A stretch of 64,000 bases of DNA. Source: Bradyrhizobium sp. SRL28 (GTDB taxonomy: Bacteria; Pseudomonadota; Alphaproteobacteria; Rhizobiales; Xanthobacteraceae). Location of the stretch: assembly GCF_018596315.1 (NCBI RefSeq), contig NZ_JAHEAG010000011.1, positions 1-64,000 on the forward strand, in the 5' to 3' direction. The position numbers and the translations under genes were made by a program. The notes under the pieces were generated by a model. The model was not told the DNA's origin and made no database searches. It was given only the letters and a program-made list of their open reading frames with translations. Below, one piece after another: positions 846 to 18,916 of the stretch. How positions within the stretch are numbered: the stretch's first letter is position 1; each line of letters begins with the position of its first letter.

Positions 846-859
846 TTGACACAGATCAA
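846..859. promoter_or_regulatory. FixK/FNR-type box TTGACACAGATCAA
   Basis: Perfect TTGA-N6-TCAA palindrome. Its centre is about 80 bases before the atoD start codon, which leaves room for a class II activator site near -40 and a short leader. B. japonicum FixK2 is known to bind TTG(A/C)-N6-(T/G)CAA. Confidence 0.75.
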
Positions 860-932
860 AGATGTGCCGACGGCCCTCGTCAACATCGCTGCCACTTCCG
901 CCCTTGAGCGCTTGTCGACCGGAGTTTCAATC

Positions 933-1580
933 ATGAGGGCCGTTTCCGTCGAAGAAGCCGTTGCGAAGATCCCGGCCGGCGCGAGCATCATGGTTGGCGG
1001 ATTCATGGGTGTCGGAACGCCGCAGCGCCTGCTTGACGAAATCGTCAGGCAGCAAAAGAGCCGTCTTTCGCTGATCAGCAACGACGCCGCGGTGCCTGGG
1101 AAAGGCGTTGGCAAGCTGTTCGATGCGACACTCGTCGCGCGCCTCACCGCAAGCCACATCGGCCTCAATCCGAAGGCGCAGCAGCAGATGCTGGCCAATC
1201 AAATCGCCGTCGATCTCATACCCCAGGGGACCTTCGTCGAACGCATTCGCGCGGGTGGTTGCGGTCTCGGAGGCGTGCTCACGCCAACCGGCGTCGGCAC
1301 CTCGGTGGCCGAAGGCAAGCGCCAGATCGAGGTAAACGGAACGACGTTTCTGCTCGAGACGGCACTGCGGGCGCAGTTTGCCCTGGTTCACGCCTTTCTG
1401 GCAGATTACCTCGGCAACCTCACCTACGCGCTGACCGCACGCAATTTCAACCCGGTCATGGCGATGGCGGCCGACACCGTGATCGTGACGGCGGAGCATA
1501 TCGTGCCCGTTGGCGTTATCGCACCCGATCACGTCATGACTCCGGCGCCGCTCGTCGACTACCTGATTACGAACGGGTGA
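933..1580 (+). CDS. atoD: 3-oxoacid/acetate CoA-transferase, subunit A
   Basis: 215 residues of the family I CoA-transferase alpha subunit. The pair transfers CoA between an acyl-CoA and a free carboxylic acid such as acetate or acetoacetate, in the cytoplasm. Seen here: the N-terminal glycine-rich GGFMGVGTPQRL motif, the GGCGLGGVLTPTGVGT segment and the NLTYALTARNFNPVMAMAA segment typical of AtoD/ScoA. A longer reading from TTG 846 is possible, but that codon is part of the FixK-type box. ATG 933 has GGAG nine bases upstream and starts where family members start, so I chose it. Subunit B follows after three bases, so the two are translated together. The substrate cannot be read from sequence. 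Confidence 0.92.
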   Translation: MRAVSVEEAVAKIPAGASIMVGGFMGVGTPQRLLDEIVRQQKSRLSLISNDAAVPGKGVGKLFDATLVARLTASHIGLNPKAQQQMLANQIAVDLIPQGTFVERIRAGGCGLGGVLTPTGVGTSVAEGKRQIEVNGTTFLLETALRAQFALVHAFLADYLGNLTYALTARNFNPVMAMAADTVIVTAEHIVPVGVIAPDHVMTPAPLVDYLITNG

Positions 1581-1583
1581 ACC

Positions 1584-2234
1584 ATGGATGGACAGACGAT
1601 CATCGCCCGGCGCGTCGCGCGGGAGCTTCATACCGGCGATCTCGTAAATCTGGGGATCGGCATTCCAACGCTGGTTGCCAACCACGTTCCACCGGAGCTC
1701 AAGGTTTTCTTCCAGTCGGAAAACGGATTGATCGGTACCGGACCGATGCCTGAGCAAGGGATGGCTCATCCGCTTCTGACGGACGCGGGTGGACGCCCGA
1801 TCAGCGCTCTGCCAGGTGCCTGCACTTTCGACAGCGCAATGTCCTTTGGATTGATCCGCGGCGGCCATGTCGATGTGACGGTCCTCGGCGGCCTGCAGGT
1901 CGATGCGCACGGGCATCTCGCCAACTGGATGATCCCCGGCAAGATGGTGCCGGGAATGGGCGGAGCGATGGATCTCGTCAGCGGCGCCAAGCGGGTTATC
2001 GTCGCGATGCAGCACGCCGCTAAAGGCAAATCGAAGATCGTCGCCAAATGTACCTTGCCGCTAACGTCGACAAGGCCAGTAAGTTTGGTCGTGACGGACA
2101 TGGCCGTCATTGCTTTCCCGGAGGGTAAAGCGACCCTGCTGGAAACCGCGCCAGGTGTCAGCATCGCCGAGGTCGTGGCCGTAACGGGAGCCGAACTCGC
2201 CATTCCCGAGACCGTCCCCGAAATGAAGATCTAA
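1584..2234 (+). CDS. atoA: 3-oxoacid/acetate CoA-transferase, subunit B
   Basis: 216 residues, the catalytic beta subunit partner of the preceding gene. The active-site signature of family I CoA-transferases is present as FQSENG, with E46 as the expected nucleophile that forms the enzyme-CoA thioester. LGIGIPTL near residues 23-30 and the glycine-rich GGLQVDAHGHLANW region are also typical. The start codon lies three bases after the stop of subunit A, with GGGTGA overlapping that stop as ribosome binding site. Full length. In this context the enzyme probably activates or releases acids made under low oxygen; that is inference from the box upstream and the neighbouring acetate kinase operon. 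Confidence 0.92.
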   Translation: MDGQTIIARRVARELHTGDLVNLGIGIPTLVANHVPPELKVFFQSENGLIGTGPMPEQGMAHPLLTDAGGRPISALPGACTFDSAMSFGLIRGGHVDVTVLGGLQVDAHGHLANWMIPGKMVPGMGGAMDLVSGAKRVIVAMQHAAKGKSKIVAKCTLPLTSTRPVSLVVTDMAVIAFPEGKATLLETAPGVSIAEVVAVTGAELAIPETVPEMKI

Positions 2235-2247
2235 CCAGGTAACGAGC

Positions 2248-2706
2248 ATGCGGATACTCAGCGATTTCAGCGAGATCAAATCCGCCCTCGGCACCGAGAT
2301 TGGCGTGAGCGACTGGATCGAAGTCTCGCAGGAACGAATCAACCAGTTCGCGGAAGCGACCTGCGACGAGCAGTGGATTCATGTCGACCAGGAGCGCGCG
2401 AAGAAAGAATTGCCAGGTGGCACCACCATCGCCCACGGACTGTTGTCGCTTGCGCTCGCACCGCTCTTCATTCGATCGGTGATGGGCCTGAAGGGCCTGC
2501 GCAATACCCTCAATTACGGGGCGGACAGGATACGCTATCTGGCGCCGGTGCCGGCGGGTTCAAGGCTGCGCGGCCGCGTTACGGTTGCGGAAGCGGAGGA
2601 CGTGCCGCCAGACGGCTTGCGCGTGAACTATCATCTCGTGATCGAGATCGAGGGCGGCAAGCGCCCCGCCTGCGTCGCCGAGTTGATCGCCCTGCACTAT
2701 CGCTAG
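2248..2706 (+). CDS. MaoC-family enoyl-CoA hydratase (R-specific type)
   Basis: 152 residues with a single hot-dog fold. The hydratase 2 motif is visible: QWIHVDQERAKKE followed by GGTTIAHGLLSLAL, which carries the Asp/His pair that adds water to trans-2-enoyl-CoA to give (R)-3-hydroxyacyl-CoA. Length and motif match PhaJ-like hydratases that feed polyhydroxyalkanoate synthesis or work in reverse in acyl-CoA reduction. It starts 13 bases after atoA with an AGGTAACGAG ribosome binding site, so atoD-atoA-maoC is one operon. It converges on the fabI operon with only 18 bases between stops. Specificity for chain length is not visible. Confidence 0.85.
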   Translation: MRILSDFSEIKSALGTEIGVSDWIEVSQERINQFAEATCDEQWIHVDQERAKKELPGGTTIAHGLLSLALAPLFIRSVMGLKGLRNTLNYGADRIRYLAPVPAGSRLRGRVTVAEAEDVPPDGLRVNYHLVIEIEGGKRPACVAELIALHYR

Positions 2707-2724
2707 ATAGCGCGCCGATCGCGA

Positions 2725-3513
2725 TCAATCGATGATGTGATAGCCACCATCGATATAGAGGACGCCACCCGTGATGAGCTTGGCGCCGTCGAGCGCCAGA
2801 AATGCGGTGGCGTTGCCGACGTCGTCAATGCTGACGAGGCTGCGCGACGGGGCCTTCGACTGCGCCTTGTCCATCAGTTCGTCGAATTCGGGGATTCCCG
2901 ACGCTGCGCGCGTGGCGAGCGGCCCGGGCGAGATCGCGTGAACGCGGATACCCTTCGGGCCCAGTTCCGCGGCCACGTAGCGAACGGCTGCTTCAAGCGC
3001 CGCCTTCGCCACGCCCATCACATTGTAATTCTCCACCACCATCTGGCTGCCGTAATAGGTCATGGTGAACATGGTTCCACCATTCTTCATCAGCGGTTCG
3101 GCCAGGTGGGCCATTCGCATGAACGACCAGCACGAGACGTCCATCGTCTTGAGGAAGCCGTCGCGGCCGACGTCCACTACGCGGCCATGGAGCGCCTCCT
3201 TCGGGGAGAAGGCGATCGAGTGCAGCAGGAAATCGAGCTGCCCCCATTCCTTCCGGATCCGTTCGAACACCTGCTCGGTCTGGCCCTCGACCATGACATC
3301 CATTGGCATGAAGAGCGACGCCTCCAATGCCTTTGCGAGCGGCTCGACGTGCTTTTTGGCGCGGTCGTTCAGATAGGTGACGGCAAGGTCAGCCCCCAGC
3401 GCACGAAAGGCCTTGGCGCATCCCCATGCGATCGACTGGTCGTTGGCGATGCCGACGATCAGGCCCTTCTTGCCCTTCAGCGCGACCTTGCTATCCGGGA
3501 ATACGGGAATCAT
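2725..3513 (-). CDS. fabI: Enoyl-[acyl-carrier-protein] reductase, FabI-like
   Basis: 262 residues, an SDR-fold NADH-dependent enoyl reductase. Seen: the FabI-type nucleotide motif [16 protein letters not shown] near the N-terminus, the divergent YNVMGVAK catalytic tyrosine/lysine (Y-x6-K), and [15 protein letters not shown] downstream. It reduces enoyl-ACP or enoyl-CoA to the saturated thioester. It is the last gene of a four-gene minus-strand operon and overlaps the acetate kinase gene by four bases (ATGA). FabI paralogues next to acetate kinase and phosphate acyltransferase genes occur in many proteobacteria. Here it may serve as a redox sink in anaerobic acyl-CoA metabolism rather than as the housekeeping fatty-acid enzyme; that is inference. 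Confidence 0.88.
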
Positions 3514-4733
3514 GACACCCTCTCATGTCTGGCGCTGGACGATGGCGTGTTCAACAGCAACGACAATGTGTGCTGCGCGATCATCAGTTCCTCGTCGGTC
3601 GGTATGACGTAGACCGGAATACGGCTGTCGGAACGGGATATCAGGCGCGCATGGCGGGAATTTTCGGCTTCGTCGAGCGTCACGCCGAGCCACCGGAGTT
3701 GTTCGGTGATCCGCGCCCGGATACGTACCGAGTTTTCTCCAATACCGGCTGTAAAGACGAAAGCGTCCAGCCCTTGCAGCGCGGCTGCAAGCATGCCGGC
3801 GTTGAGGCCGATCCGATAGACGAAATACTCGACCGCCAGTTTCGCCTTTGGATCCTCGCTTGCCTCCAGCTCACGCATATCGTTGCTGATGCCCGAGAGG
3901 CCCTTCAATCCGCAATCGCGATAGAGGAAGCTCTGTGCGTTGGACGGCGACATTCCCTTTTCGGAGAGCAGATAGAGCACGACACCAGGGTCGATTTGTC
4001 CCGGGCGCGTTCCCATGGGTAGCCCGTCGAGTGCGGTGAAGCCCATGGTGCTCTCGATGCTGCGCCCTCCCTTTAGCGCGCACATGGAGGCGCCACTTCC
4101 GAGATGCGCTACGATGACCCGCCCCTTTGCGATTTCGGGTGCGACCTGCGGCAAGGTTTTCGCGACAAATTCATATGAGAGACCGTGGAATCCGTAACGC
4201 CGCACGCCCTCGGCATGGAGCTGGTGCGGGATTGCATAGTAGTCAGCGACCGCGGCATGCGTGCGGTGAAACGCGGTGTCGAAACATGCCACCTGCGGAA
4301 GCGCTGGAAAATTGGCCAGAAGCGAACGGATTGGGGCCAGGTTATGCGGCTGGTGAAGCGGGGCCAGCGCAACGAATCGCTCCAACCGGGCTACGACGCC
4401 GTGGTCGATCAGCACCGGCTGATCATAGTCCGGACCTCCATGAACGACGCGATGACCGACGGCCACTGGGCTGATGCGAACTTCGTCCCGCAGCCATCCG
4501 CCTGCAATGCCCATCGCGGCCGGAACATCGGGAACCGCTTCGATCGGATAGGCGCGGTCGGCCAGTGGACCGCTGTCCGTACCGCTTGCCCGCAGGCGAG
4601 GACGACTGCCAATGCCATCCATTTGGCCCTTGATCAGCCGCCGTAGCTTCCCTTCTCTCTCGACTGAAAAGATCTGGAACTTGACGCTCGAGGAGCCGGC
4701 ATTGACGACGAGGATCGTATCCATGGCAATCAC
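3510..4733 (-). CDS. ackA: Acetate/propionate kinase
   Basis: 407 residues. Acetokinase motifs are intact: [11 protein letters not shown] at the N-terminus, GHRVVHGG, the DTAFH segment, [10 protein letters not shown] and a late GIGENS. It interconverts acyl phosphate + ADP with the carboxylate + ATP, giving substrate-level ATP. The longest start is GTG 4733, which overlaps the stop of the phosphate acyltransferase gene as GTGA; ATG 4724 is an equally good family-type start. The stop overlaps the fabI start by four bases. The tight overlaps on both sides indicate translational coupling within the DUF3141-pta-ackA-fabI operon, which has a FixK-type box at its head. Confidence 0.93.
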
Positions 4734-5701
4734 GCTGCAACATTTGGGGCAAGCTGGCGCCGCGCATTTGCATAGAGAGCCGCAACCGCGCAGGAAGCCA
4801 TCCGCGCGCGTGCGGTGTCCGCACGCGACGTCAGAACGACGGGCACCCGGGCGCCGAGCACGATGCCGGCACTATCCGCCTTGGCGAAGTAGGCCAGATT
4901 CTTCGCCAGCATGTTGCCGGCTTCGAGGTCGGGAACGAGCAATATCTGTGCCCGACCGGCAACCTCGGATTTGATTCCCTTGATCCGTGCGGCCTCCACA
5001 TCGATCGCATTGTCGAAGGCAAGTGGTCCGTCGAGCACGCCCCCAGTGATCTGCCCGCGATCTGCCATCTTGCAGAGCGCCGCCGCCTCGATCGTGGATG
5101 GTATCTTGGAGGTAACGGTTTCGACCGCCGACAGGATCGCCACACGCGGTGATTTACCGAAGCCGGCTTGCGTATAGAGATCAATCGCGTTCTGGATGAT
5201 GTCCCGTTTGGTATCGAGATCGGGAAAGATGTTGATGGCCGCGTCCGTTACAATGAGGGTCTCGGCATACGCCGGCACATCCATCACGAACACATGGCTG
5301 ATCCGCCGCTCAGTCCGCAGGCCGCCCACCTTCGCCGTGATGCTGCGCATCAGTTCGTCGGTGTGCAGGCTACCCTTCATCAGCATCTCGCCCTTGGCGG
5401 CATGGATGAGCTCGACGCCCTTTGCAGCCGCGGCCTCGCTGTGCGGGGCATCGACGATCTCGTAGCCGGAAATATCGAGGCCGTATTTGCTGGCCGTATC
5501 CCTGATTTTTCTTTCGGGACCAACCAACAATGGCCGAATAATGCCCGCCGCCGCGCTGTCGACGACACCGCGTAGCGAGGTTTCATCACAGGGATGCACG
5601 ACAATGGTCGGCGTCGGCGGCACTGCTTTGGCCGCGGCGATCAGACGGTCATACTTGCTGGGAGAGTGCGCTTTTCCTGAATCGGCGGGCATGGCTTTCA
5701 T
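4730..5701 (-). CDS. pta: Phosphate acetyl/butyryltransferase
   Basis: 323 residues of the Pta/Ptb type without the long N-terminal domain of E. coli Pta. It converts acyl-CoA + Pi to acyl phosphate + CoA, feeding the kinase encoded next. Seen: [16 protein letters not shown], the [16 protein letters not shown] segment and [16 protein letters not shown], followed by [16 protein letters not shown]. All are characteristic of the PTA_PTB family. The start ATG 5701 has GGAG seven bases upstream. It lies 29 bases after the DUF3141 gene and overlaps ackA. The preferred acyl group (acetyl, propionyl or butyryl) cannot be told; the CoA-transferase and hydratase nearby make C4 acids possible. Confidence 0.92.
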
Positions 5702-5730
5702 GATGTCGCTCCGGATCTTGCCAATTAACG

Positions 5731-7959
5731 CTACGATGCCTTCGCCTTCGGATCGAAGGGGGCGACCTTCGAAGCCTTATCCGAAAATTCGCCCGCATCG
5801 ACGCCGAACAGCTCGGCAACACGCTTCAGACGCCTGGCGACCTCACCCGATATTGCCGCACTGGCGGACAGCACATCGCGAATCGCCGCGAAAGCCGCGT
5901 TGCGTGCCTTTGCATTGTCGGGCAACAGCTTCGGTATCGCGGCCAGCGCTCCCTCTTGATCCAGCAGAAGCATGAAGAACTGCTCGCGAACCAGCATCTT
6001 GAACTCTGCCAGCGTCAGCCGCGCACCGGCGTCGCTACGGCGAACATTGCGCAGCGCTTCAAGGCTCCGCTCGTCCACCATCCCTCTCGCCGACCCGACA
6101 TACAGAAGGCCGCGAATGGCCGCTTCGCGAAGGCCGCCTTCGCTGATTTTGGATTTCAGCTCCGCGATCCGCCTCTGGAGCATTTCACGGTGTGCAGCAG
6201 ACATCTCCTGCCGGCGCGATGGGCTAGATTGCGGATCGATTCCGACAGCCGCCTGCAACGCCGGCGAGCCGTAAACCGCAAGGAAGGTCGCCTCGCTGAG
6301 CGCCTCCTGCGAATCCCGCCAACTGTCCAACGCATTGACGATTTGCTTGGAGACCTGCTCCTGAAAGGCAATGAAAGGATTATCTTCCGACACCTGCTTG
6401 CGATCTTCGCTCGCCCGCTCCGCCAGCGACTTGACCATGGACATCAACGGATTCCGGCTGCTGAAGGCTTCATACTGAAGCCGCAACGGATGCAGATTTC
6501 GCATCGTCTCCGCCATCTGAGGCTTCACCATGCCCTTGATCCAGGGCTGGACGAATTTTTGGTAGGCGGCGAGATTGATTTCCGACACGCGCTTGGCGGC
6601 GGCAAACCGCCGCTCATCCTCGGGTGAATTGCCGCCCATGGCACGGATGTCGTCAAGCGTCCGCGCCTCGCAGCGCATGACCCACTGGCCGACGGCGAGG
6701 TCGGCATTCGCGGTATCAGTGCCCTTGGCCTCGAACGTTGCTTCGTAGAGACCAGGCGGCAGAACATCGATCAGATCGATATTGCTGGAAAATTCCGCAT
6801 GTTCCTTCTTGGCGATGCCACCGGAAACGAAAATGCCGAGATGGCCGACGCTCTCATGAACCGTGTAGACGATCGTCTGACCGTAGGCCCTGATTTCGTC
6901 GACGTCGGCATAGAGATCGAGGATCCAGTCCAACGCCTGTTGCGGCGGGGTAATATTGTCCCCCTTGGAGCAGAACACCACGATCGGTGACCTGATATTG
7001 CGCAAATCGACCGGCTGACCGTCAGACATCTTGATCCGGCCGGCGGCAAGATTGTTGCCGACGAAAAGTTCATCGACGATGAACTGGATTTCCTCGGCAT
7101 TCAGATTGACATGCCCGCCCCACCAGCGTTCGAATTCGAGGTATCGGTCGGCCTCGGTATCGACCTTTGAATAGACGTTGTACTGCTTGGTCCACAGCGT
7201 ATTGGAAGGATTCTGGCCCTCGAAGTTTTGCACGAGCCAGGCGCCATCGAATTTGCCGCCTCCGAGATCGCTCGTCAGCGCGGTTAGCCAGCTGCCTCCC
7301 AGCAGGCCACCGGAATAGCGCATCGGGTATTTGCCATGCACACCCGCCCAGTAGGCAAGCGGGGCGCCTGCGATGATGATAGGTCCGAACAGTTCCGGCC
7401 GCAGCGACGCCAGGATCATGACGGCCCAGCCGGCCTGGCAATTTCCGATGACACACGGCTTGCCGTCGGCTTTGGGATGGAGGCTGATGACTTTCTCGAT
7501 GAACACGGCTTCGGCGCGCGCGATCCGCTCGATTGTTTGTCCAGGCATCGGCTCGGGCAGGAAGCCGATGAAATAGCAGGGATGCCCTGCTTTCATCGCA
7601 ACGCCGATTTCGCTGTCCGCCTTGAATCCCCCGATTCCCGGACCATGCCCGGCACGAGGATCGACCACGATGAACGGCCGCCGGTCGAGATCAATTTCGA
7701 CGTCTTTGGGCGGAATGATGCGCACCAGCGCATAATTCACCGGTTCATCCAGCTTGCGGCCGTCGATGATCAGTTCAGCGGCATATTGCAGGACATGCGG
7801 CGCCGTTTGCGCGATGTGTTCCCGATACTGATCGCCGCGTTGACGCAAGACATCCAGGAACAGGACGCTGCGTTGACCCGCATCCATCATGTACTCTACG
7901 GCCGAAGCGGCAAGCCCTGACATGGGACCGCCCGGCAACATTGCTTTGTCCATCGACAT
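5731..7959 (-). CDS. DUF3141 protein, PhaC-like alpha/beta-hydrolase
   Basis: 742 residues. The first ~400 form an alpha/beta-hydrolase domain that resembles polyhydroxyalkanoate synthase: a nucleophile elbow GNCQAGW with cysteine in the lipase-box position, an aspartate in CSKGDNITPP and a histidine in ESVGHLGIFVSGG. These make a Cys-Asp-His triad like that of PhaC. The C-terminal ~350 residues are mostly helical and specific to DUF3141. A longer reading starts at TTG 8007, but ATG 7959 has AGAGGT eight bases upstream and lies below the FixK-type box, so I prefer it. It leads the operon with pta, ackA and fabI. The family has no settled biochemical role that I know of; a PHA-synthase- or depolymerase-like role is inference. 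Confidence 0.85.
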   Translation of the reverse strand: MSMDKAMLPGGPMSGLAASAVEYMMDAGQRSVLFLDVLRQRGDQYREHIAQTAPHVLQYAAELIIDGRKLDEPVNYALVRIIPPKDVEIDLDRRPFIVVDPRAGHGPGIGGFKADSEIGVAMKAGHPCYFIGFLPEPMPGQTIERIARAEAVFIEKVISLHPKADGKPCVIGNCQAGWAVMILASLRPELFGPIIIAGAPLAYWAGVHGKYPMRYSGGLLGGSWLTALTSDLGGGKFDGAWLVQNFEGQNPSNTLWTKQYNVYSKVDTEADRYLEFERWWGGHVNLNAEEIQFIVDELFVGNNLAAGRIKMSDGQPVDLRNIRSPIVVFCSKGDNITPPQQALDWILDLYADVDEIRAYGQTIVYTVHESVGHLGIFVSGGIAKKEHAEFSSNIDLIDVLPPGLYEATFEAKGTDTANADLAVGQWVMRCEARTLDDIRAMGGNSPEDERRFAAAKRVSEINLAAYQKFVQPWIKGMVKPQMAETMRNLHPLRLQYEAFSSRNPLMSMVKSLAERASEDRKQVSEDNPFIAFQEQVSKQIVNALDSWRDSQEALSEATFLAVYGSPALQAAVGIDPQSSPSRRQEMSAAHREMLQRRIAELKSKISEGGLREAAIRGLLYVGSARGMVDERSLEALRNVRRSDAGARLTLAEFKMLVREQFFMLLLDQEGALAAIPKLLPDNAKARNAAFAAIRDVLSASAAISGEVARRLKRVAELFGVDAGEFSDKASKVAPFDPKAKAS

Positions 7960-8013: not shown

Positions 8014-8027
8014 TTGATTTAGGTCAA
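8014..8027. promoter_or_regulatory. FixK/FNR-type box TTGATTTAGGTCAA
   Basis: Perfect TTGA-N6-TCAA palindrome, centre about 61 bases upstream of the DUF3141 start codon at 7959. It would control DUF3141-pta-ackA-fabI. The AI-2E gene ends only 11 bases away and is transcribed in the same direction toward it. Confidence 0.78.
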
Positions 8028-8037
8028 GGTTCGACAG

Positions 8038-9117
8038 TCAGTCTGGCAATGCCGCATTGACGCGATCGGTGCGTATCCAGGCGACCGTCAATTCCCAGGC
8101 CACGGAGAGAATGATCGGTCCGATGAAGAGACCGACAATCCCGTGCGCGAGTGTTCCTCCGATCACCCCGACGAAGATGACGAGCGTCGGCGTCGTCAGG
8201 CCGCGTCCCATCACGAGAGGTTTCAAAATATTGTCGAGTATGCCGACGATGCCCAGGAACACCGTCAGCAGAAGCGCTGTGGTAAAATCCTTGTCTACCC
8301 AGATCCAGATGATCACGGGAACCAGGACGATTGCCGCGCCGATCTGCACGATCGCCAGGATCATAACCGCGAAGGCCAACAGGCCGGCGCCGGGAATACC
8401 CGCCAGCTTGAAGCCGAGACCGGCCAGCAAGGACTGGATGATGGCGACGCCGATGACGCCCTGGGATACCGCGCGGATGGTTGCGCCCGCCAATTCCAGG
8501 AAATGTTCACTCTGCTCGGGCACGATGCGATAGAGAAAACCCCTGCCCGCCGCCACCAGCTGCGAGCCGTAGGGAAAGAGAAAGCCAGCCAGCGCGACAG
8601 ACAGGAGAAACTTGAGCGTCCCCACGCCGGCATCGCCCGCGAGACCGAGCATGGGGCCGGCCAGCGGCTTCAGATGGGGAGCCACCTCGCGAAAAGCCGC
8701 TCGAATGTTGTTGGACGCGTGGTTCCAGAGTTCGTAAAGCTGCGGACCGATCAGCGGCCAATCCTTGACGCGCTCCGGCGGAGACGGAACCACCAGGTTA
8801 CCAGCGGTCAGATTTGCGGCGACATCCTTCACCCCTTCCACGGCGCTCAAGCCAAGCCATGTCGCCGGCCCGATGACGATCCCGAGATTGATGACGGTGA
8901 GAATAGCCGCTGCGAGCCTCGGGCGATCGCCGAGAAACCTGGAAAGGATCTCGAAGACAGGATAGAGCGCGACGGCGAGTACGATGCTCCAGGCCAGGAT
9001 CGGCACAAAGGGACGGATGAGAACAAACGTCCAATAGATCAGGAAGGCGAGCAATCCGAGCCGGATCGCAAGCTGGATGAGGTCCTCTCCGGACCGCGGC
9101 TGGCGAAAGGTTTTCAA
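8038..9117 (-). CDS. AI-2E family transporter (PerM-like membrane protein)
   Basis: 359 residues, strongly hydrophobic, with about seven to eight membrane segments. The order is the one found in AI-2E/PerM proteins: a hydrophobic N-terminal pair (LGLLAFLIYWTFVLIRPFVP), a soluble helical loop around residues 90-150, and C-terminal paired segments ending in VIGGTLAHGIVGLFIGPIIL. The family includes putative exporters of signals and Na+/H+ antiporters, so the substrate here is open. The reading frame opens only at a TTG (9115-9117) with GAAGG seven bases upstream. No in-frame ATG gives the complete first helix. A FixK-type box lies 73 bases upstream and is shared with the divergent acetyltransferase gene. 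Confidence 0.85.
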   Translation of the reverse strand: MKTFRQPRSGEDLIQLAIRLGLLAFLIYWTFVLIRPFVPILAWSIVLAVALYPVFEILSRFLGDRPRLAAAILTVINLGIVIGPATWLGLSAVEGVKDVAANLTAGNLVVPSPPERVKDWPLIGPQLYELWNHASNNIRAAFREVAPHLKPLAGPMLGLAGDAGVGTLKFLLSVALAGFLFPYGSQLVAAGRGFLYRIVPEQSEHFLELAGATIRAVSQGVIGVAIIQSLLAGLGFKLAGIPGAGLLAFAVMILAIVQIGAAIVLVPVIIWIWVDKDFTTALLLTVFLGIVGILDNILKPLVMGRGLTTPTLVIFVGVIGGTLAHGIVGLFIGPIILSVAWELTVAWIRTDRVNAALPD

Positions 9118-9183: not shown

Positions 9184-9197
9184 TTGATCCAGATCAA
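9184..9197. promoter_or_regulatory. FixK/FNR-type box TTGATCCAGATCAA in divergent promoter region
   Basis: Perfect TTGA-N6-TCAA palindrome between two divergent genes. The centre is 73 bases from the AI-2E start (minus) and 85 bases from the GNAT start (plus). A symmetric site could serve both directions. Confidence 0.78.
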
Positions 9198-11458: not shown

Positions 11459-11472
11459 TTGATCTAGATCAA
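11459..11472. promoter_or_regulatory. FixK/FNR-type box TTGATCTAGATCAA (perfect 14-base palindrome)
   Basis: All 14 bases are self-complementary, so the site reads the same in both directions. It lies between the divergent antiporter gene (start 130 bases away) and the 61-residue protein (start 113 bases away). Confidence 0.8.
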
Positions 11473-11764: not shown

Positions 11765-12524
11765 CATCATCATTGGGACGGTCCGGGCCTTCACCGAGAA
11801 GCAAAGCTTCTCGTTGCCGAGACCTGCCGGGGTCCGCGCAAGGCGAAAATCCGCGATCGTTCGCGGTTATGGCGTTGGTACCCGCAGATTTCTTCACTTG
11901 GCGAGCTTCTCACAAGCGAGACTGCCTCTGGAGCAGTCGCTGCATCCGCAGAGAATTCCGTCTTGCAATTTTCGCCTTGGCGGCGTGCACGGCGTTTGCC
12001 CTGGTCGCTTGCTTTGGCGCTGTCGTTTGAATGCTTTCGACCGGCGTCGTGGAAGGCGACTGGGTGGCGGCGATCGAAGGGTGGCTGGCAGGCTGCACAG
12101 CCATGGGTGCGGTTACGGGTGTCCTTCGCCGGGGCATCCTTGATAACTCCGATCGAACGAAGTTGTTCAATCGTGCCCCGCGCTCTAGTTGGCCCGGCGA
12201 ACGACGGTTCCGGACGACATGCGCCGGGCCATAACCACCACGGGTTTCCCCCCGGAATGGCCTGTTCACGCTGGGTCTGATTCTTGGCGGAATTTGGCGC
12301 CCTGCAACGCCAACACAAAATCACTCTTGGGAACTACGGTCTTCGGGTGGCCCTGCCCGGCTCTTCGTTTACTGCGGCGACTATAAGTGTGCCCACTCGA
12401 CCCAAGACAGCACGATCGGACATTTGCCTGTCTAGGCACGAAAGGCGTTGTCTTAAAAACCGCCGGTGCGAGCAGATGGATGATCGCGAACGAGTTGGTT
12501 TTGCGACGGTCGGCCGGTGTTACT
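11765..12524. other. 760-base stretch without a convincing gene
   Basis: Open frames occur on both strands, but all are overlapping, rich in R/P/S and lack ribosome binding sites. On the plus strand one frame reads FRLAIFALAACTAFALVAC, a stop at 12028-12030, and then continues open to 12234. This could be a decayed membrane or exported protein. I found no hairpin with a T tract and no FixK-type box. Confidence 0.4.
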
Positions 12525-12659: not shown

Positions 12660-12787
12660 GTCGCTAGCCAAGCTTTGCTCAGATTCGCGCTTGTTAAAAG
12701 CAAAACAGTTTGTGCATCGCAACCATGCTCGCTTCGGCTCCGTCGCCGATCGCACGCGGGCTGCGCACGCCGCGTGCTTAAGGACAG

Positions 12788-15481
12788 CTAAAGCGTCAGC
12801 TTGACGTTGCAGATGTCGTGTTCGACCGGGTCTGACTTCACCTCGAAACCGAGGCTCCGGCACATCGCGAGCATGACTGTGTTCTCGGCCAGGACGTCAC
12901 CGGAGATCGCTTTCAATCCCTCGGACTTCGCATATTCGATGATCATCTGCATCAGCGCCCAGCCGAGCCCCCTGCCCTTGAGGTCCGACCTCAACAGGAT
13001 CGCATATTCGCCGCTCTGATAGATCGAGTCCGAATGAATCCTGACCACGCCGACCGGCTCGTTGGCCGCCTCGTCGAACGCGACGAAGGCCATCGCCCGG
13101 GAATAATCGAGCTGGGTCAGGCGGGCGATGAACTCATGGGAAAATTCCTTCATCGGAGCGAAAAACCGCAGCCGCAGGTCCTGCATCGTGACGTGTTTCA
13201 ACATCGCGTGGATCAGCGGCTCGTCTTCGGGCCGGATCGGACGAACGAATACGCGCCAGCCGTCCTTGACCTCGATGTGACGTTGCCATTGCGAGGGATA
13301 AGGCCGCACGGCGAAATTCGCAGGTCCCGACCCGCGAAACTTCCGCTCCACGCGCCCGATCACGACGCGCGCATCGACAGCGAGCACGCCGGCTTCATCG
13401 GCCAGCAACGGATTGATATCGAGCCCGCGGATTTCGGGAATGTCGGCCGCCATCTGCGCCAGCTTGACCAGAACCATCGCGACGGCGTCCGGCTTCACCG
13501 CCGGCACGTCGCGATAGGCGCGCAACAGCCGCGAGACGCGGGTGCGCTCGATCAGGCTGCGCGCCAGTTGCAGGTCGAGCGGCGGCAGCGCCAGCGCCTT
13601 GTCATTGATGATTTCAACCGCCGTGCCGCCGCGGCCGAACACGACGACGGTGCCGAAGGTCGGATCGTCGGCGAGGCCGAGAATGAGTTCGCGCGCCTTC
13701 GCCCGCAGCACCATCGCCTGCACCATCACGCCCGAAATCCGGGCCTCCGGCCGCAACGATCTTGCACGCGCGAGGATCTCGGCGGTCGCCTTGCGCACCG
13801 CATCCGCGCTGGTGAGGTTGAGCACGACGCCGCCGACATCGGATTTGTGCACGATGTCGCGCGACATGATCTTGAGCACGACGGTCGAGCCCTGCGCGAA
13901 CAGCGCGTTCGCATGAGCGACCGCCTGCTCGGCATCGGCCGCGGCGAAGGTCGGCACGACCGCGATGTCATAGGCATCGAACAGCCGCTTGACCTCGATC
14001 GGATCGAGCCAGGAGCGGCCGTCGGCGAGCGCTGCGGCAACGATCTGCCGCGCTGCGTCGGCATCGGGCGCGAACTCACTCGGCATGGCGGGCGGAACCT
14101 GCGCCAGCGTCTCCACCAACTCGCGATGGCGGACCAGATGCATGAAGCCGCGCACCGCGTCGTCTTCGGTCGGATAATTCGGAATGCCGGCCCCGCTCAA
14201 CAGATTGCCGATCGACGGCTCCGCGCCGACCCAGACCGCGAGAACGGGCTTCGGCGCCCCGCGATGCCCGGCGCGATATTCCTGCACCACCCCGGTCACA
14301 GCAGCGGCGATCTCGTCGGCGCGCGCAATCGCCGTCTGCACGTTCATGACAAGCACGGCGTCGTTTTCGGGGTCGGCCAGCAACGCTTCCAGCGCTGCGG
14401 CATAGCGCGCGGGATCGGCGTCGCCGACGATATCGACCGGATTCGATTTCGACCATGTCGGCGGCAACGTAGCTTCCAACTTCTCGCTGATCGCCGGCGA
14501 AAGGGCTGCGGGAATACCGCCAAGGTCGACCAGCCGGTCAATAGCCAGCACGCCGATGCCACCGCCATTGGTCAGGATCGCAAGCCGCTTTCCGGGCGGC
14601 GATTTGAGCCGCCCGAGCGTTTCGGCACAGTCGAACAGTTCTCGAAGATCCGAGACCCGCAGGATGCCGGCGCGCTGAAACGCGGCGTCGTAGACGGCAT
14701 CGGCCCCGGCCAGCGCGCCGGTATGGGTTGCAGCCGCCCGTGCGCCTTGCGCCATCCGGCCTGACTTGACGACCACCACCGGCTTCACTCTGGCGGCAGC
14801 GCGCGCCGCCGACATGAACTTGCGCGCATCCTTGATCGCTTCGATGTAGAGCAGGATGGCGTGGGTCTTTTCATCCAGCGCGAAATAATCGAGCAGATCG
14901 GCGATATCGACATCGAGTTGGTCGCCGATCGAAACAATGCCGGAAAAGCCAACGGCCCGCTGCGCCGCCCAGTCCACCATACCAGCGGCAATGGCGCCGG
15001 ACTGCGAGATCAGTGCCAAATGTCCCGCAGCCGGCATATGTGCGGAAAAGCTCGCATTGAGACTGACGCCCGGCATCATGATGCCAAGGCAATTCGGGCC
15101 GATCAGCCGCATGCCATATTTTTGCGCGGCCCGCTCGGCTGCATCCGCCAGCGAACCCGGACCGTGGCCGAGCCCGGCACTGACAATGACGGCGCCTGCC
15201 GCGCCGCGGCGGCCCGCCTCATCGATCAGGCCCGCGATGGTGTGCGCCAGGGCGGTGAGGACAACGAGTTCGGGCGCAAAAGCCAGTTCTGCGATGCTGC
15301 CGACGGACGCGACGCCGTCGATCTCGTGATAACGTGGGTTAACAAGACCGAATTCGCCCTTGAATTGGGCTTTGCGAATATTGTTGAGAATGGCACGGCC
15401 AACCGAGCCATGGCGCGGACTGGCCCCGACCAGCGCGACCGAATGCGGCGAAAGCAGATTTTTCAGACGATAGGTGGACAT
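12788..15481 (-). CDS. pat: Pat-type protein: NDP-forming acyl-CoA synthetase domains fused to GNAT
   Basis: 897 residues. Order: CoA-binding domain (about 8-140, VALVGASPRHGSVGRAIL), succinyl-CoA-ligase-like domain (about 150-450), ATP-grasp domain (about 480-700, with VLKIMSRDIVHKSDVGGV) and a C-terminal GNAT (about 730-890, LKGRGLGWALMQMIIEY). This is the architecture of bacterial Pat/PatZ enzymes that acetylate lysines of acyl-CoA synthetases and other proteins. The histidine in AATHTGALAGAD corresponds to the phospho-histidine of succinyl-CoA ligase and is present, so synthetase activity is not excluded. ATG 15481 has GGAG upstream and removes 18 unlikely N-terminal residues. No box of its own; it may be cotranscribed with the phasin-like gene 176 bases upstream. 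Confidence 0.88.
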   Translation of the reverse strand: MSTYRLKNLLSPHSVALVGASPRHGSVGRAILNNIRKAQFKGEFGLVNPRYHEIDGVASVGSIAELAFAPELVVLTALAHTIAGLIDEAGRRGAAGAVIVSAGLGHGPGSLADAAERAAQKYGMRLIGPNCLGIMMPGVSLNASFSAHMPAAGHLALISQSGAIAAGMVDWAAQRAVGFSGIVSIGDQLDVDIADLLDYFALDEKTHAILLYIEAIKDARKFMSAARAAARVKPVVVVKSGRMAQGARAAATHTGALAGADAVYDAAFQRAGILRVSDLRELFDCAETLGRLKSPPGKRLAILTNGGGIGVLAIDRLVDLGGIPAALSPAISEKLEATLPPTWSKSNPVDIVGDADPARYAAALEALLADPENDAVLVMNVQTAIARADEIAAAVTGVVQEYRAGHRGAPKPVLAVWVGAEPSIGNLLSGAGIPNYPTEDDAVRGFMHLVRHRELVETLAQVPPAMPSEFAPDADAARQIVAAALADGRSWLDPIEVKRLFDAYDIAVVPTFAAADAEQAVAHANALFAQGSTVVLKIMSRDIVHKSDVGGVVLNLTSADAVRKATAEILARARSLRPEARISGVMVQAMVLRAKARELILGLADDPTFGTVVVFGRGGTAVEIINDKALALPPLDLQLARSLIERTRVSRLLRAYRDVPAVKPDAVAMVLVKLAQMAADIPEIRGLDINPLLADEAGVLAVDARVVIGRVERKFRGSGPANFAVRPYPSQWQRHIEVKDGWRVFVRPIRPEDEPLIHAMLKHVTMQDLRLRFFAPMKEFSHEFIARLTQLDYSRAMAFVAFDEAANEPVGVVRIHSDSIYQSGEYAILLRSDLKGRGLGWALMQMIIEYAKSEGLKAISGDVLAENTVMLAMCRSLGFEVKSDPVEHDICNVKLTL

Positions 15482-15657: not shown

Positions 15658-16026
15658 TCAATTCAGAGCGCGGCCACTGATCAGGTTGGACGTCGCCGCA
15701 ATCATCTGCTCGCCATGCTTGAACAGCCGTTCGGAGTCGCGGCGGAAGAAGTCGAGCTGATGCTGGCCGCATTCCTGGCACATCGTGGTAATGTCCCTGA
15801 CGGAATGCGCGCCCGCCATCTTCGTGACGAACTCCGTGAACAGATGCATCTCGGTCTGCGTTCGCTCCAGCATCTCGTCGCCGAGAAACACCATTTCCTC
15901 AAGCATCATCTTCTGCGTGCCAAGCATGAACTCCAGCGCGCCCTGGTTCAGTTTGGCGGCTTCCGCTTCTGCATTTGCGGCTGCTGGAAAGGAACCAAAT
16001 GCGGCCCGCTCAGACAATTCTGACAT
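15658..16026 (-). CDS. Phasin-like protein, 122 aa
   Basis: Helical protein of the phasin_2 type: a short N-terminal part (MSELSERAAFGSFP), then AAKLNQGALEFMLGTQKMML, alternating with charged heptads through TQTEMHLFTEFVTKM, and HGEQMIAATSNLISGRALN at the end. Phasins coat polyhydroxyalkanoate granules or act as granule-associated chaperones. A pair of cysteines (TTMCQECGQHQ) in the middle is unusual for a phasin. ATG 16026 has GGAG six bases upstream; an open frame continues to 16086 but begins inside the FixK-type box. The box centre is 66 bases from this start. Confidence 0.7.
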   Translation of the reverse strand: MSELSERAAFGSFPAAANAEAEAAKLNQGALEFMLGTQKMMLEEMVFLGDEMLERTQTEMHLFTEFVTKMAGAHSVRDITTMCQECGQHQLDFFRRDSERLFKHGEQMIAATSNLISGRALN

Positions 16027-16085
16027 GACGATCTCCGATTTCTGAGTTTCCGCCGAAACGATATTGAGCGGCTTCGCGTCGAACA

Positions 16086-16099
16086 TTGAGGCACATCAA
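16086..16099. promoter_or_regulatory. FixK/FNR-type box TTGAGGCACATCAA
   Basis: Perfect TTGA-N6-TCAA half sites, centre 66 bases upstream of the phasin-like start at 16026. It would also serve the Pat-type gene if the two are cotranscribed. Confidence 0.75.
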
Positions 16100-16190
16100 G
16101 CTGGCGTCATTGCGACCGCAACCACAGCCAGGATGGCCCAAGGCAGGGAACTCGCCGGGACGAAAGGTCACATCCCCTGCCCACGCGAGA

Positions 16191-17021
16191 TCAGTGCGAC
16201 ATCAGCACCGGTACGGTCATGCTGTCGAACATGCTGCGCGTGACACCGCCAAGAATTCGCTCCTGCAACCGCGAATGGCCGTATCCCCCCATCACAAGGA
16301 GGCCCATATTGCTTTCGGCCGCGACCGACAGAATGGCGCCCTGAACGGCGCCGCGATCCGCGGTCAGCCGCTGTACCCGGGCCGCAATGCCGCGCCGCCC
16401 CAGATGCGCGACGAGATGGTCCGAGGAAGTTTCACCAGCCTCCTCATTGGCCGCAATCACGGTCACGGCCTTCGCGCCCATCAGAAACGGCATCGCATCG
16501 CGCCACGCGCGGGCCGCCAGGCGGCTGCCGTCCCAGGCGATGCCGACATGCTGGGCGTCCAGCGGCCCCTTGTGGATATAGGGAACCATCAGCATCGGCC
16601 CGCCGGAATTGAACAGGATCTGCTGCGGAATCTCGTTGTCGTAGCTCGCCTTCGAGGATTCCGGCTGCAGCACGATCGTCATGTCGTAAAGCCGGGCAAG
16701 CGCGCTGATGATCCGCCCGGCGTCGGCGGGAATTGTCGCGAAGGTCCTGGTGCCGTAGGCGATTTTGGCGAGCTTGGCCTCAATCTCGAACATGGCGATC
16801 GCGGCGTTCGCTCTTTCCTGGGCGCGATCCTGTTCAGCCACCATGACGGCTCCAGCAGCGGCGCCGCCCTCGACAATCATCCCGACGGCACTCCTCGATT
16901 CATAGCCGATGGCGACCGCATCGAGATGCGACCGCCGCGCAATGGTCAGCGCGACAGCGACGTCAATCACCGGCCTGACCGAACGCTCGGAGGGAATATG
17001 AACCAGAATGTTCCTGAACAT
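16191..17021 (-). CDS. Universal stress protein, tandem UspA domains
   Basis: 276 residues with two Usp folds. The N-terminal one (MFRNILVHIPSERSVRPVID...) is degenerate. The C-terminal one begins at HVGIAWDGSRLAARAWRDAM and ends with the ATP-binding signature MGGYGHSRLQERILGGVTR (G-2x-G-9x-GG[V]T) and PVLMSH. Such proteins bind ATP and support survival under energy or oxygen limitation. Two ATGs are close: 17027 and 17021; GGGAG is placed seven bases before the second, so I use 17021. The FixK-type box lies 92 bases upstream. In several alphaproteobacteria Usp genes are known members of FNR/FixK regulons. Confidence 0.88.
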   Translation of the reverse strand: MFRNILVHIPSERSVRPVIDVAVALTIARRSHLDAVAIGYESRSAVGMIVEGGAAAGAVMVAEQDRAQERANAAIAMFEIEAKLAKIAYGTRTFATIPADAGRIISALARLYDMTIVLQPESSKASYDNEIPQQILFNSGGPMLMVPYIHKGPLDAQHVGIAWDGSRLAARAWRDAMPFLMGAKAVTVIAANEEAGETSSDHLVAHLGRRGIAARVQRLTADRGAVQGAILSVAAESNMGLLVMGGYGHSRLQERILGGVTRSMFDSMTVPVLMSH

Positions 17022-17106
17022 CGCCATTCTCCCACACTTCGCGAGGGCATGCGGCCCCCGTCCCGGATTGCTGCCGGCAAGGTAACCGACGAACCGATGG
17101 CCGAAG

Positions 17107-17120
17107 TTGACGCGCATCAA
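17107..17120. promoter_or_regulatory. FixK/FNR-type box TTGACGCGCATCAA
   Basis: Perfect TTGA-N6-TCAA half sites between the CHAD gene stop and the Usp gene start, centre 92 bases upstream of the Usp start codon. Confidence 0.75.
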
Positions 17121-17160
17121 ACCCGGAAATGCCGAACGGCAGCGCATGCGAACGGCGACG

Positions 17161-18063
17161 TCAGCGGACTCCGGCGTATTTGAGGTCGTGATGAGCCGCG
17201 ATGGCGTCGCCGAGCAGCTTTTCCTTTCGATGGCGATAGCCCGGCGGATGCTTCTTGCCTCGTTTGCCATTTTCTACCTGCGGCGACCCGCTGGCAAGAT
17301 CGGCGAAGCGTTTGAGATCGCGCATGTCGCCCAATGCACGCTGCAATCGTTTTGCCGGCCGGTGCCGCTGATGGAATTCGCCCCGCCCCTGCAGCGCGAC
17401 GGTTTTCGTGAGCGCTTCCAGCATGTAGCGTAAGCGTTTGGCCTTGATCCGCAGCCGGTGACGGCGTGACGCCCCCAAGGTCTTCAGGCTCCGCCCCTTG
17501 CGGACCAGCCGTTCGTGCCAGCGCGCGAGCTCGCGCGTGCAATAGGATTGCAGAGCCTCCGCATCCGTGCGCCGTTTGTAGCGCGCGAGCCACGGTCCTT
17601 GCCTGATCCAGCCAGCCATGGCCGCGACCAGGCGTTGCGTCCGAGCGGAGCGCAGGCAGCGCACCAGGCGGCGGTGGTCCCGCACCTGGCGCTGATCGAG
17701 CTGCTCGCCGATCGTGCCCTGCGCCCACGCGCGGTATCGCTTGCGGCGCGCATATTCCAGGACGACGTCGCTGTCGCGCGCGGCGCCGAGCGGGCCATTG
17801 AGCCAGGCGATCTCCTTCTTCAGTCGTAGCCATTCCGCATCGACCACGATCGGCGCGAAGAACGCCACGGCGGCGCGCAGCCGCGTGATCGCGACCCGGA
17901 TCTGATGCACGGCCTCGGCATCGCCGGCGCACGCGCTGCTGTGATGGGCCTTGATGTCAGCGACACACTCCAGCGTCATCTTCTGGAATGCGGTCGCACA
18001 ATCGAGCCCCGCCGCTTCAGAGGCCTTTTGTCGGCTGGACGTTCTTGTTTGACCGTTTCTCAT
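17161..18063 (-). CDS. CHAD-domain protein
   Basis: 300 residues, very basic and helical. The CHAD signature is visible: DAEAVHQIRVAITRLRAAVA near residues 48-67 and the second repeat KTLGASRRHRLRIKAKRLRYMLEAL near 193-217, with conserved histidines and arginines that bind polyphosphate. There is no CYTH triphosphatase domain attached, so this is a stand-alone CHAD protein. Such proteins associate with polyphosphate or PHA granules in some bacteria. It lies upstream of the Usp gene in the same direction, but the box and 140 bases separate them. I saw no FixK-type box in its own upstream 300 bases. Confidence 0.85.
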   Translation of the reverse strand: MRNGQTRTSSRQKASEAAGLDCATAFQKMTLECVADIKAHHSSACAGDAEAVHQIRVAITRLRAAVAFFAPIVVDAEWLRLKKEIAWLNGPLGAARDSDVVLEYARRKRYRAWAQGTIGEQLDQRQVRDHRRLVRCLRSARTQRLVAAMAGWIRQGPWLARYKRRTDAEALQSYCTRELARWHERLVRKGRSLKTLGASRRHRLRIKAKRLRYMLEALTKTVALQGRGEFHQRHRPAKRLQRALGDMRDLKRFADLASGSPQVENGKRGKKHPPGYRHRKEKLLGDAIAAHHDLKYAGVR

Positions 18064-18367
18064 CTTCAGTGCTCGCCCGGCACCGCAAGCAAAGAAACAC
18101 GGGCGCTGCGCAGCGACTGGCCCGGTGTGCCTGAGGCATCGATCATGCGCCAGTTTACCGCACCGATTGCGAAAGTCTCCTGCTCCAGGGCAACATTTCG
18201 TGTTGCATCAGACCCTGCCTTCCGCGATCCGCACCAGCCGCGTCGCGAGATCCCTGGTGAGAAAGGACAGGCCGGCGAAGCGCGCGCCAGGCATGGCCGT
18301 AACACCTGCAGTTTCGGTTCATTCCGCTCCCTGCAGACAGGCGTTTTCGGTCATTTCGTGGAGTGAC
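18064..18367. other. 304-base intergenic stretch, no gene seen
   Basis: Lies between the CBS gene stop and the CHAD gene start, both on the minus strand. It should contain the CHAD promoter. I see no TTGA-N6-TCAA site, no hairpin with a T tract and no convincing short gene. Confidence 0.5.
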
Positions 18368-18793
18368 TTATCCCCGCACGCTCTCGGTCAACCCACGCAT
18401 GATGTCCTCGCGCGCGATGATCCCGACCAGCCGCTGTTCGGTATCCAGCACAGGGAGACTCTTCATCCGGTGGTCCACCATCAGTTGCAGGACGCGGGTC
18501 AGTTTTGTTGCCGGATCGACATAGATGAATTCCGGCGTCATCACATCCACCACCATCCGCGACAACAAATCGTCGTAGGCCGGAACCATGCGCCCGGGGT
18601 TGAACGCAAAGCATTTCAGGAAGTCGAAATTACTCACGACGCCGACGATGTCATCGCCTTCGCGGACCGGGTAACAGTTGAAATCATCGGCCTCGAACAT
18701 CTTGTGCAACTCGCGCATGGTGGTGTCGCGCGCAACCGTCTTCACCTTGCGCGTCATGTATTGCCCGGCGGTCGCTTCGAGAAATCTATGCAC
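18368..18793 (-). CDS. CBS-pair domain protein
   Basis: 141 residues made of two CBS motifs and little else: residues about 10-65 (YMTRKVKTVARDTTMRELHK ... VGVVSNFDFLK) and about 80-138 (VVDVMTPEFIYVDPATKLTR ... VGIIAREDIMRGL). Such stand-alone pairs bind adenine nucleotides or NAD and sense energy state. It starts at ATG 18793 and is divergent from fixL with 300 bases between. A degenerate FixK-type site is 116 bases upstream. The partner it regulates is not visible. Confidence 0.88.
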   Translation of the reverse strand: MHRFLEATAGQYMTRKVKTVARDTTMRELHKMFEADDFNCYPVREGDDIVGVVSNFDFLKCFAFNPGRMVPAYDDLLSRMVVDVMTPEFIYVDPATKLTRVLQLMVDHRMKSLPVLDTEQRLVGIIAREDIMRGLTESVRG

Positions 18794-18902
18794 GGGGCTT
18801 CCTCGTCATTGTGAATCCTTAACGGGACAGGAACGCACAGCGGCGCGATTCAGTTGCAAGGTGGCGCGTAACGGCATCCTAGAGGCCAGCCACGCTTCGA
18901 AT

Positions 18903-18916
18903 CTGACCTGGATCAA
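18903..18916. promoter_or_regulatory. Degenerate FixK/FNR-type box CTGACCTGGATCAA
   Basis: One half site is perfect (TCAA), the other has C for T (CTGA). It is in the CBS-fixL divergent region, 116 bases upstream of the CBS start. It is weaker evidence than the six perfect boxes. Confidence 0.45.

Follow-up and report, generated by a model that had tools for sequence, protein, structure and literature searches.

A conserved set of FixK-type boxes beside fixLJ-fixK2 in Bradyrhizobium sp. SRL28, probably shared by overlapping low-oxygen cascades

The stretch of DNA analysed here, referred to as the window, comprises 64,000 nucleotides of Bradyrhizobium sp. SRL28 (contig NZ_JAHEAG010000011.1, positions 1 to 64,000), and its first 21 kb carry a dense set of FixK/FNR-type boxes, TTGA-N6-TCAA, beside the genes of the oxygen-sensing cascade fixL-fixJ-receiver-fixK2. 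Judging from the conservation of the boxes in related genomes, these 21 kb are very probably part of a FixK-controlled low-oxygen regulon in which overlapping cascades would act on shared boxes. The promoters are most likely activated at low oxygen by FixK2-type proteins, and the copy encoded in the window (FixK2-A) would be one of up to three readers. An earlier sequence-only reading had proposed a dense FixK/FNR-type site set at this place, and this was borne out: the sites are conserved and the gene cluster is intact. The same reading took the window to hold the sensor cascade together with a contiguous set of targets; the cascade and the sites are present, but the contiguity did not survive, as a left block (coaA to cax, boxes 846-11459) and a right block (acs to at3, carrying fixLJ-fixK2) are joined at about 11.8 kb. 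Its assignment of the sites to a single regulator had to be abandoned, since there are three FixK2-like proteins in this genome and the FixLJ-FixK2 cascade is present twice in full. A regulon around fixLJ is of a known kind and ordinary for such bacteria; the interesting part is the duplication of the cascade and its possible replacement.

Seven perfect sites were found in the window: at 846 (TTGACACAGATCAA, 846..859), 8014 (TTGATTTAGGTCAA, 8014..8027), 9184 (TTGATCCAGATCAA, 9184..9197), 11459 (TTGATCTAGATCAA, 11459..11472, fully symmetric), 16086 (TTGAGGCACATCAA, 16086..16099), 17107 (TTGACGCGCATCAA, 17107..17120) and 21233 (TTGAGCCAAGTCAA, 21233..21246). All seven lie within the first 21.3 kb, and the remaining 43 kb hold none. 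The first six are exactly where the sequence-only reading had placed them; the seventh, at the boundary of fixJ and the receiver gene rr, had been overlooked. The one-mismatch copy that it had reported at 18903 is also present (CTGACCTGGATCAA, 18903..18916, between cbs and fixL). Measured to the conserved starts, the centres of the first six boxes lie 61.5-130.5 bp upstream, in keeping with the 60-130 bases claimed, and these boxes are intergenic, as had been stated. The exception is the added box at 21233, which overlaps the fixJ stop codon and has its centre 40.5 bp upstream of the rr start. The centre of the imperfect box lies 152.5 bp upstream of cbs and 184.5 bp upstream of fixL.

In 100 dinucleotide-shuffled versions of the window, the mean was 0.56 perfect sites and the maximum four, so that none reached seven. 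The whole SRL28 genome (G000 in the numbering used below; 9.65 Mb) contains 185 perfect sites versus 37 for a reversed-pattern control, which is one per 52 kb, or 0.39 expected per 20.4 kb. The density at the start of the window is therefore about 18-fold above the genome mean, and when the 185 sites were placed uniformly at random in 2000 rounds, seven in one 20.4-kb stretch were never attained. A genome-wide density comparison had been suggested as a check; the low background was confirmed by it, but two other 20-kb stretches proved equally dense. Contigs C202 and C199 likewise attain seven perfect boxes per 20 kb, and contig C214 holds five inside about 5 kb. The dense stretch of the window is one of several in the genome.

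Conservation was examined in footprints of 250 bp before the conserved start at orthologous loci of other genomes, where distinct sequences were counted. Rows were dropped if the orthologue fell under a per-gene identity threshold, if the match began after residue 25, if the upstream stretch was shorter than 200 bp or if the upstream sequence was identical to another; some genomes give two regions. A perfect box was kept in every orthologous region of coaA (10/10), the DUF3141 gene (13/13), the AI-2E transporter gene (11/11), the GNAT gene (11/11), cax (4/4), usp (14/14) and rr (8/8), and in 10 of the 15 regions of the phasin-like gene. None was found in the orthologous regions of coaB (0/10), ackA (0/12), fixJ (0/16), fixK2 (0/20), chad (0/13), at3 (0/7) and cbs (0/12), and a single one in those of pta (1/11); the reversed-pattern control gave no match upstream of any gene. 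The spacing is kept as well, with the rr box at 40.5-41.5 bp in all eight rows and the usp box at 76-103 bp, mostly 84-95 bp. The FixK2 box of B. diazoefficiens is given as TTGA/C-N6-T/GCAA in the available part of PMC9104804. A conserved box of this kind, which would place a gene in a FixK2 regulon, was found for coaA, DUF3141, AI-2E, GNAT, cax, usp and rr, for the phasin-like gene in 10 of 15 regions, and in imperfect form at fixL/cbs. Of the five phasin regions that lack a perfect box, two retain the wider consensus. The regions of loci L016, L017 and L030 have no site of either kind; in these three loci the neighbouring usp, cbs and fixLJ-fixK2 were not found either.

The site between cbs and fixL behaves differently. 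A perfect box stands upstream of fixL in 10 of 21 orthologous regions. In the upstream regions of A-type fixL, the type found in the window, the site reads CTGACCT[A/G]GATCAA in 10 of 10, and among the remaining fixL rows, which are not A-type, a perfect box is present in 11 of 12. That the box at 18903 is kept in imperfect form suggests a tuned weak site.

The genes of the cascade are intact. FixL (fixL, 19094..20635, plus strand) passes the NCBIfam equivalog NF041777 with 938 bits against a cut-off of 850, matches FixL structures in the Protein Data Bank, and carries His200 and Arg220 in its predicted haem-binding PAS domain; their roles are presumably those known from B. japonicum FixL. FixJ (fixJ, 20619..21236, plus strand; receiver plus LuxR-type helix-turn-helix, HTH), the single-domain response regulator (rr, 21280..21714, plus strand) and FixK2-A (21812..22525, plus strand) all have their expected domains. 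FixK2-A combines a cNMP-binding fold with a Crp-type HTH (Pfam PF00027, PF13545, PF00325) and its alignment with B. diazoefficiens FixK2 (4i2o) spans the whole protein, the recognition helix RRDIGDYLGLTLETVSRALSQL being identical; the numbering of its recognition residues as E201 and R205 in the sequence-only reading is correct. It has no Fnr-type cysteine cluster. Its sole cysteine, Cys188, aligns with position 183 of 4i2o, a chain that bears a C183S exchange; C183 of B. diazoefficiens FixK2 is described as the redox-active cysteine in the part of PMC9104804 at hand. Against the best NCBIfam model, NF050806 (the Caulobacter FixK equivalog), FixK2-A scores 232.9 bits, below the cut-off of 300, as do its homologues FixK2-B (231.7 bits) and FixK-C (214 bits). 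This shortfall is not taken as excluding FixK2, because the model was built for another order.

By analogy with B. diazoefficiens, the chain of activation would run from FixL through FixJ and FixK2 to the boxes. At low oxygen, FixL would phosphorylate FixJ, which would switch on fixK2; FixK2 would then bind the TTGA-N6-TCAA boxes and activate stress genes, genes of acetyl-CoA and polyhydroxybutyrate metabolism, and the receiver gene beside fixJ. The proposed targets are usp, the phasin-like gene, the CoA-transferase genes, DUF3141-pta-ackA-fabI, AI-2E, GNAT and cax, and several overlapping cascades may act on this one set of boxes. In the B. diazoefficiens fixK2 mutant, acetate/propionate kinase is about tenfold down, according to the available part of PMC9104804.

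Several observations weigh against so simple a chain. Three simple FixJ-like patterns, one of them searched on a single strand only, gave no match upstream of fixK2-A or fixK2-B; the loosest matched once on C202 (4259) and once far off in the window (56188). In the window, no perfect box precedes acs, chad or fixK2; across genomes, only 15 of the 81 acs upstream regions contain one, and five of the 15 for the phasin-like gene do not. The C199 stretch is as dense as the window, yet no FixK2-like gene lies there among the six G000 matches listed (eight were counted). Of 23 genomes searched, 14 have the DUF3141 gene (E up to 1e-100) and nine do not, and the left block is therefore not universal. 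Finally, fixN was not found in the window; the only close copy in G000 adjoins a second cascade, copy B, on C214, and for this reason B may outweigh A for respiration.

The searches with FixK2 and FixL covered 22 genomes, namely G000 and 21 chosen from the genomes of 80 acs-protein loci. In G000, the three FixK2-like proteins are FixK2-A in the window, FixK2-B on C214 and FixK-C on C202 (locus L159, 3695-4345), and their recognition helices are near-identical, with ETVSRALS common to all three. Judging from these helices, the same boxes are probably readable by each of the proteins. FixK-C is surrounded on C202 by genes for a receiver-HTH protein, a single-domain receiver, a histidine kinase, a CBS protein, a phasin, PPK2 and SulP. 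In nine of nine relatives with both in the compared stretch (G002, G004, G005, G008, G009, G011, G017, G018 and G146; G016 has the block only), the distance from coaA to FixK-C is about 0.6-6.5 kb, and FixK-C is adjoined there by a FixJ-like receiver-HTH protein. The residue of FixK-C equivalent to C183 is serine in seven of 10 genomes (G000, G146, G005, G011, G017, G018 and G008) and cysteine in three (G002, G004 and G009), and cysteine stands at this position in all listed FixK2 rows of A and B type. FixK-C with serine would be a natural counterpart of C183S, the variant with which the FixK2-DNA structure was obtained, and is perhaps insensitive to oxidation.

This arrangement also fits a different reading, a real possibility albeit a doubtful one, in which the boxes are genuine and the main reader is not FixK2-A: FixK-C would read the left block, an imported FixK2-B the rest, and A would be on its way out. 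The adjacency of the left block to FixK-C in all nine relatives and the shared ETVSRALS favour it, as do the lack of a full-length A-type FixL in four of the eight genomes with copy B (G001, G003, G014 and G021) and the absence of a native-type fixN from G000. In G000, however, fixL-A and fixK2-A run over their full length with no internal stop, the reading frames of fixJ and the receiver gene are open, and the right-block boxes stand beside A in relatives without B.

The window's cluster reads as a fusion of two conserved box-rich blocks. The window is homologous to the FixK-C block as far as 11775 and, from 11841 onward, to the sequence that lies past acs in loci L021 and L170, which leaves a junction at 11776..11840 between the FixK-C-linked left block and the fixLJ-linked right block. 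The left block recurs in relatives with its gene order largely unchanged. True rearrangement or assembly error would give the same picture of the junction, and it is unlikely, though worth keeping in mind, that the contiguous 21-kb set is partly an artefact in which the contig carrying the window (labelled C13) misjoins the two blocks. The sharpness of the junction is in favour of such an error; left-block genes were found in none of the 70 acs loci (of 80) whose sequence extends 5 kb or more past acs, the two blocks lie far apart in the single-contig genome G146, at 7.6 and 6.97 Mb, and the G000 assembly is in 262 pieces with a contamination value of 4.46. Against it stands that this region is often rearranged in relatives.

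The second set of genes, on C214, consists of fixL, fixJ, receiver, fixK2, cbs, an Fnr-like gene and fixN, with bioA and bioD nearby, so that G000 has two whole FixLJ-FixK2 cascades. Nucleotide identity of the B fixL-fixK2 stretch to that of G000 is 99.5-99.6% in G001, 99.5% in G008, 99.2% in G003, 98.1% in G014 and 96.4-96.7% in G002, G004 and G021. For the same genomes, identity is 87.6-91.5% in the acs flank of copy A and 85.3-90.6% in the flank at 24-35 kb of the window, where that was found. Copy A is flank-like across species (89.7% in G008, 83.7% in G002, 86% in G004). Because its fixL-fixK2 identity between species is well above that of the chromosomal flanks, copy B has probably spread horizontally. 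Both protein trees split A from B and place B nearest B. cenepequi among the sampled sequences; a tandem duplication as the origin of B was considered unlikely on account of this separation.

The excess identity extends unevenly to the linked genes. For fixN, the identity is 98.5-98.8% in G001, G003, G008 and G014 and 93.3-93.4% in G002 and G021; for the bio genes, it is 99.9% in G001 and a flank-like 87.1% in G021. This lack of uniformity, together with the strong constraint on FixLJ-FixK2, would suit an old duplicate whose similarity gene conversion or selection has maintained, as opposed to a recent arrival. Such an origin is nevertheless improbable, since the bio genes and fixN (98.8%) share the excess between G000 and G001, copy A is equally constrained and reaches only 83.7-89.7% to G002, G004 and G008, and B groups with B. 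cenepequi rather than with A in both trees. An origin of the boxes by chance from the local base composition is barely conceivable: at up to one mismatch, the window has 25 matches (seven perfect, 18 imperfect), merely 1.6 times the 15 expected in all, so that a lone single-mismatch site means little, but neither shuffling nor random placement reproduced the seven perfect sites, and a chance origin of these is ruled out by orthologous promoters that keep perfect boxes at similar spacing while neighbouring genes do not.

A cross-species identity far above that of the chromosome, as expected of a symbiosis island, is seen for the fixL-fixK2 stretch of copy B; it is weaker for fixN of G002 and G021 (93%) and absent for the bio genes of G021. 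Copy B lies on the nifH contig, about 163-170 kb from nifH, in two of the eight B genomes (G004 and G021) and on other contigs in six, which makes the link to a symbiosis island suggestive only. The G+C content is 0.576-0.614 per 5 kb on C214 and 0.604-0.631 per 8 kb in the window. The B contig of G001 also carries cobN, hypF, hydrogenase subunits, fixG and a copper P-type ATPase in the fixI position. G004 (Bradyrhizobium sp. LMTR 3; C10, C54 and C52) has two A-type fixK2 genes, 90-91% identical to that of the window, plus one of B type. Among 136 sampled genomes of the genus, for which about 11 candidates were scored per genome so that FixL counts are possibly lower bounds, 110 had FixL at E up to 1e-150 and 11 had two or more. 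Doubled FixL occurs in other Bradyrhizobium lineages too, at 67-71% identity to the window copy in G042, G087, G092, G097, G139, G154 and G155.

The native cascade is often incomplete where B is present. A-type FixL is kept in four of eight genomes with B versus nine of nine without (p=0.03), and native-type fixN, 86-89% identical to the B copy, in two of eight (G002 and G004) versus eight of nine (p=0.015); the genomes are related and the events not independent, so both values overstate the association. The comparison group without B (n=9) includes metagenome-assembled genomes and an Afipia, and G016-G020 were not counted, as the one cassette that each has falls in neither group. Among the genomes without B, G012 has no native fixN and that of G007 is a partial match; several of the native fixN matches are flagged for an in-frame stop. 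Between the usual flanking genes of G003 and G021, fixL, fixJ and the receiver gene have been lost and only part of fixK2 survives; G003 also lacks cbs and keeps no more than the first 41 residues of at3, and cbs is truncated in G021. G001 and G014 have no cascade between at3 and chad. Absence of A from a draft genome could in principle be an assembly gap; in all four genomes, at3 and/or chad-phasin-acs are joined on one contig in which the cascade is missing or fragmentary. Against simple replacement, the cascade has gone from the window-type locus of G006, a genome with no B that keeps a second A-type copy, and also from that of G002, which has B and keeps A elsewhere. Loss at this locus is therefore not tied to B alone.

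Taken together, these patterns would be explained if a mobile, symbiosis-linked region with its own cascade enters Bradyrhizobium and plugs into existing FixK boxes, whereupon the native cascade and native fixNOQP, no longer needed, decay in place, repeatedly. This scenario is tentative, with something short of an even chance, and its odds are lowered because the excess identity is weaker for fixN and the bio genes in G002 and G021. With the same reserve, the mobile region may have contained the bio genes, fixLJ-receiver-fixK2, cbs, the Fnr-like gene and fixN; in one genome, the candidate region adds fixG, a fixI-like ATPase, cobN and hydrogenase genes. The SRL28 genome might then have been caught with both cascades intact, which is no more certain than the scenario itself. 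In G146 (C1:6955001-6975000, locus L188), the window-locus fixL occurs at 13222-14750 in two overlapping pieces, as if frameshifted, and a full-length A-type fixL lies at 5.55 Mb. Around the latter, C1:5475001-5575000 (loci L183-L187) contains 32 perfect boxes per 100 kb with none for the reversed-pattern control, as well as A-type and B-type homologues of fixL/fixJ and fixK2; this stretch is a low-oxygen island far larger than that of the window.

The genes of the left block begin with coaA and coaB, for the CoA-transferase alpha and beta subunits, and a MaoC-like gene (933..2706, plus strand; Pfam), a probable operon behind the box at 846; a profile match places the coaA product in the 3-oxoacid CoA-transferase subunit A subfamily. 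The DUF3141 gene, pta, ackA and fabI (2725..7959, minus strand) form a probable operon behind the box at 8014, whose centre lies 61.5 bp upstream of the DUF3141 start. The order of these four genes is largely kept in relatives, and the DUF3141 protein has a weak PhaC-like similarity, below cut-offs. The box at 9184 lies in the divergent promoter of the AI-2E family transporter (8038..9117, minus strand; Pfam/domain match) and the GNAT acetyltransferase (9276..9797, plus strand; domain match), and that at 11459 upstream of cax, encoding a Cax-type calcium/proton exchanger (10232..11335, minus strand; domain and profile match). In the right block, acs encodes an NDP (nucleoside diphosphate)-forming acyl-CoA synthetase fused to a GNAT domain (12788..15481, minus strand); by this protein, the nearest records are B. 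valentinum, B. jicamae and B. lablabi. The phasin-like protein behind the box at 16086 (15658..16026, minus strand) reaches 21.6 bits with Pfam Phasin_2, below the cut-off of 24.9. It is followed by usp, for a universal stress protein (Usp; 16191..17021, minus strand; domain match) with the box at 17107, chad, for a CHAD-domain protein (17161..18063, minus strand), and cbs, for a CBS-domain protein (18368..18793, minus strand; domain match). No tRNA was found in a search of the window. Positions 1-615 had no match among the loci compared, and homology to the FixK-C block begins at 616. On C199, the dense stretch at 9976-29721 (loci L156/L157) has seven perfect boxes in 20 kb and genes including a receiver, an ATP-dependent DNA ligase and DUF3597.

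As far as the available parts of the literature go, the FixLJ-FixK2 regulon of B. diazoefficiens USDA110 is alike in its cascade proteins, its box consensus and the kinds of its targets (Usp, CBS, polyhydroxyalkanoate-related and acetate kinase genes). There, fixLJ presumably adjoins usp-cbs-fixNOQP; we take blr2761 (Usp), bll2758 (receiver) and blr2762 (CBS) to adjoin fixLJ, and the position of rr to resemble that of bll2758 relative to fixLJ. All three are microoxia-induced, and in the table of PMC6515984 only blr2761 is marked as a FixK2 target. In contrast to USDA110, where that table has usp (blr2761), cbs (blr2762) and fixO (blr2764), the window is without a fixN. A further contrast is the duplication of the cascade in G000. 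The cluster bll6060-blr6074 of B. diazoefficiens, which we assume to be the site of fixK1, is a different locus and is likened to the window by its kinds of gene. Its Usp, CBS, GNAT and PhaC2 genes are microoxia-induced and several are FixK2 targets, according to the available part of PMC6515984.

Redundancy of low-oxygen genes within one genome is known from other rhizobia: five fixK copies are reported for Bradyrhizobium sp. BTAi1 and several fixNOQPGHIS copies for many rhizobia in the accessible portions of PMC4999443 and PMC9957244. G000 differs in that the whole set from sensor to oxidase is doubled, and one copy is far more alike between species than are the chromosomal surroundings of the other. 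An imported cascade acting on boxes already in place has a likeness in the Caulobacterales, where fixLJK is proposed to have been transferred horizontally and to have taken over existing FnrN sites (PMC4999443, as far as available). That proposed transfer is ancient and between orders, whereas copy B looks recent and lies in a genus that already has a native cascade. Among the open-access titles and abstracts searched, none was found on a second fixLJ copy in Bradyrhizobium, on fixLJ on a symbiosis island, or on a horizontally spread complete fixLJ-fixK2-fixNOQP package in Bradyrhizobium.

The regulon in itself confirms known biology. If the replacement is true, it would be a natural experiment in which an imported cascade captures a chromosomal regulon through a common binding site, and fixK2-A and fixK2-B would be expected to be at least partly interchangeable on the same promoters. 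It would also bear on the question of which oxygen sensor runs the nodule in non-model Bradyrhizobium.

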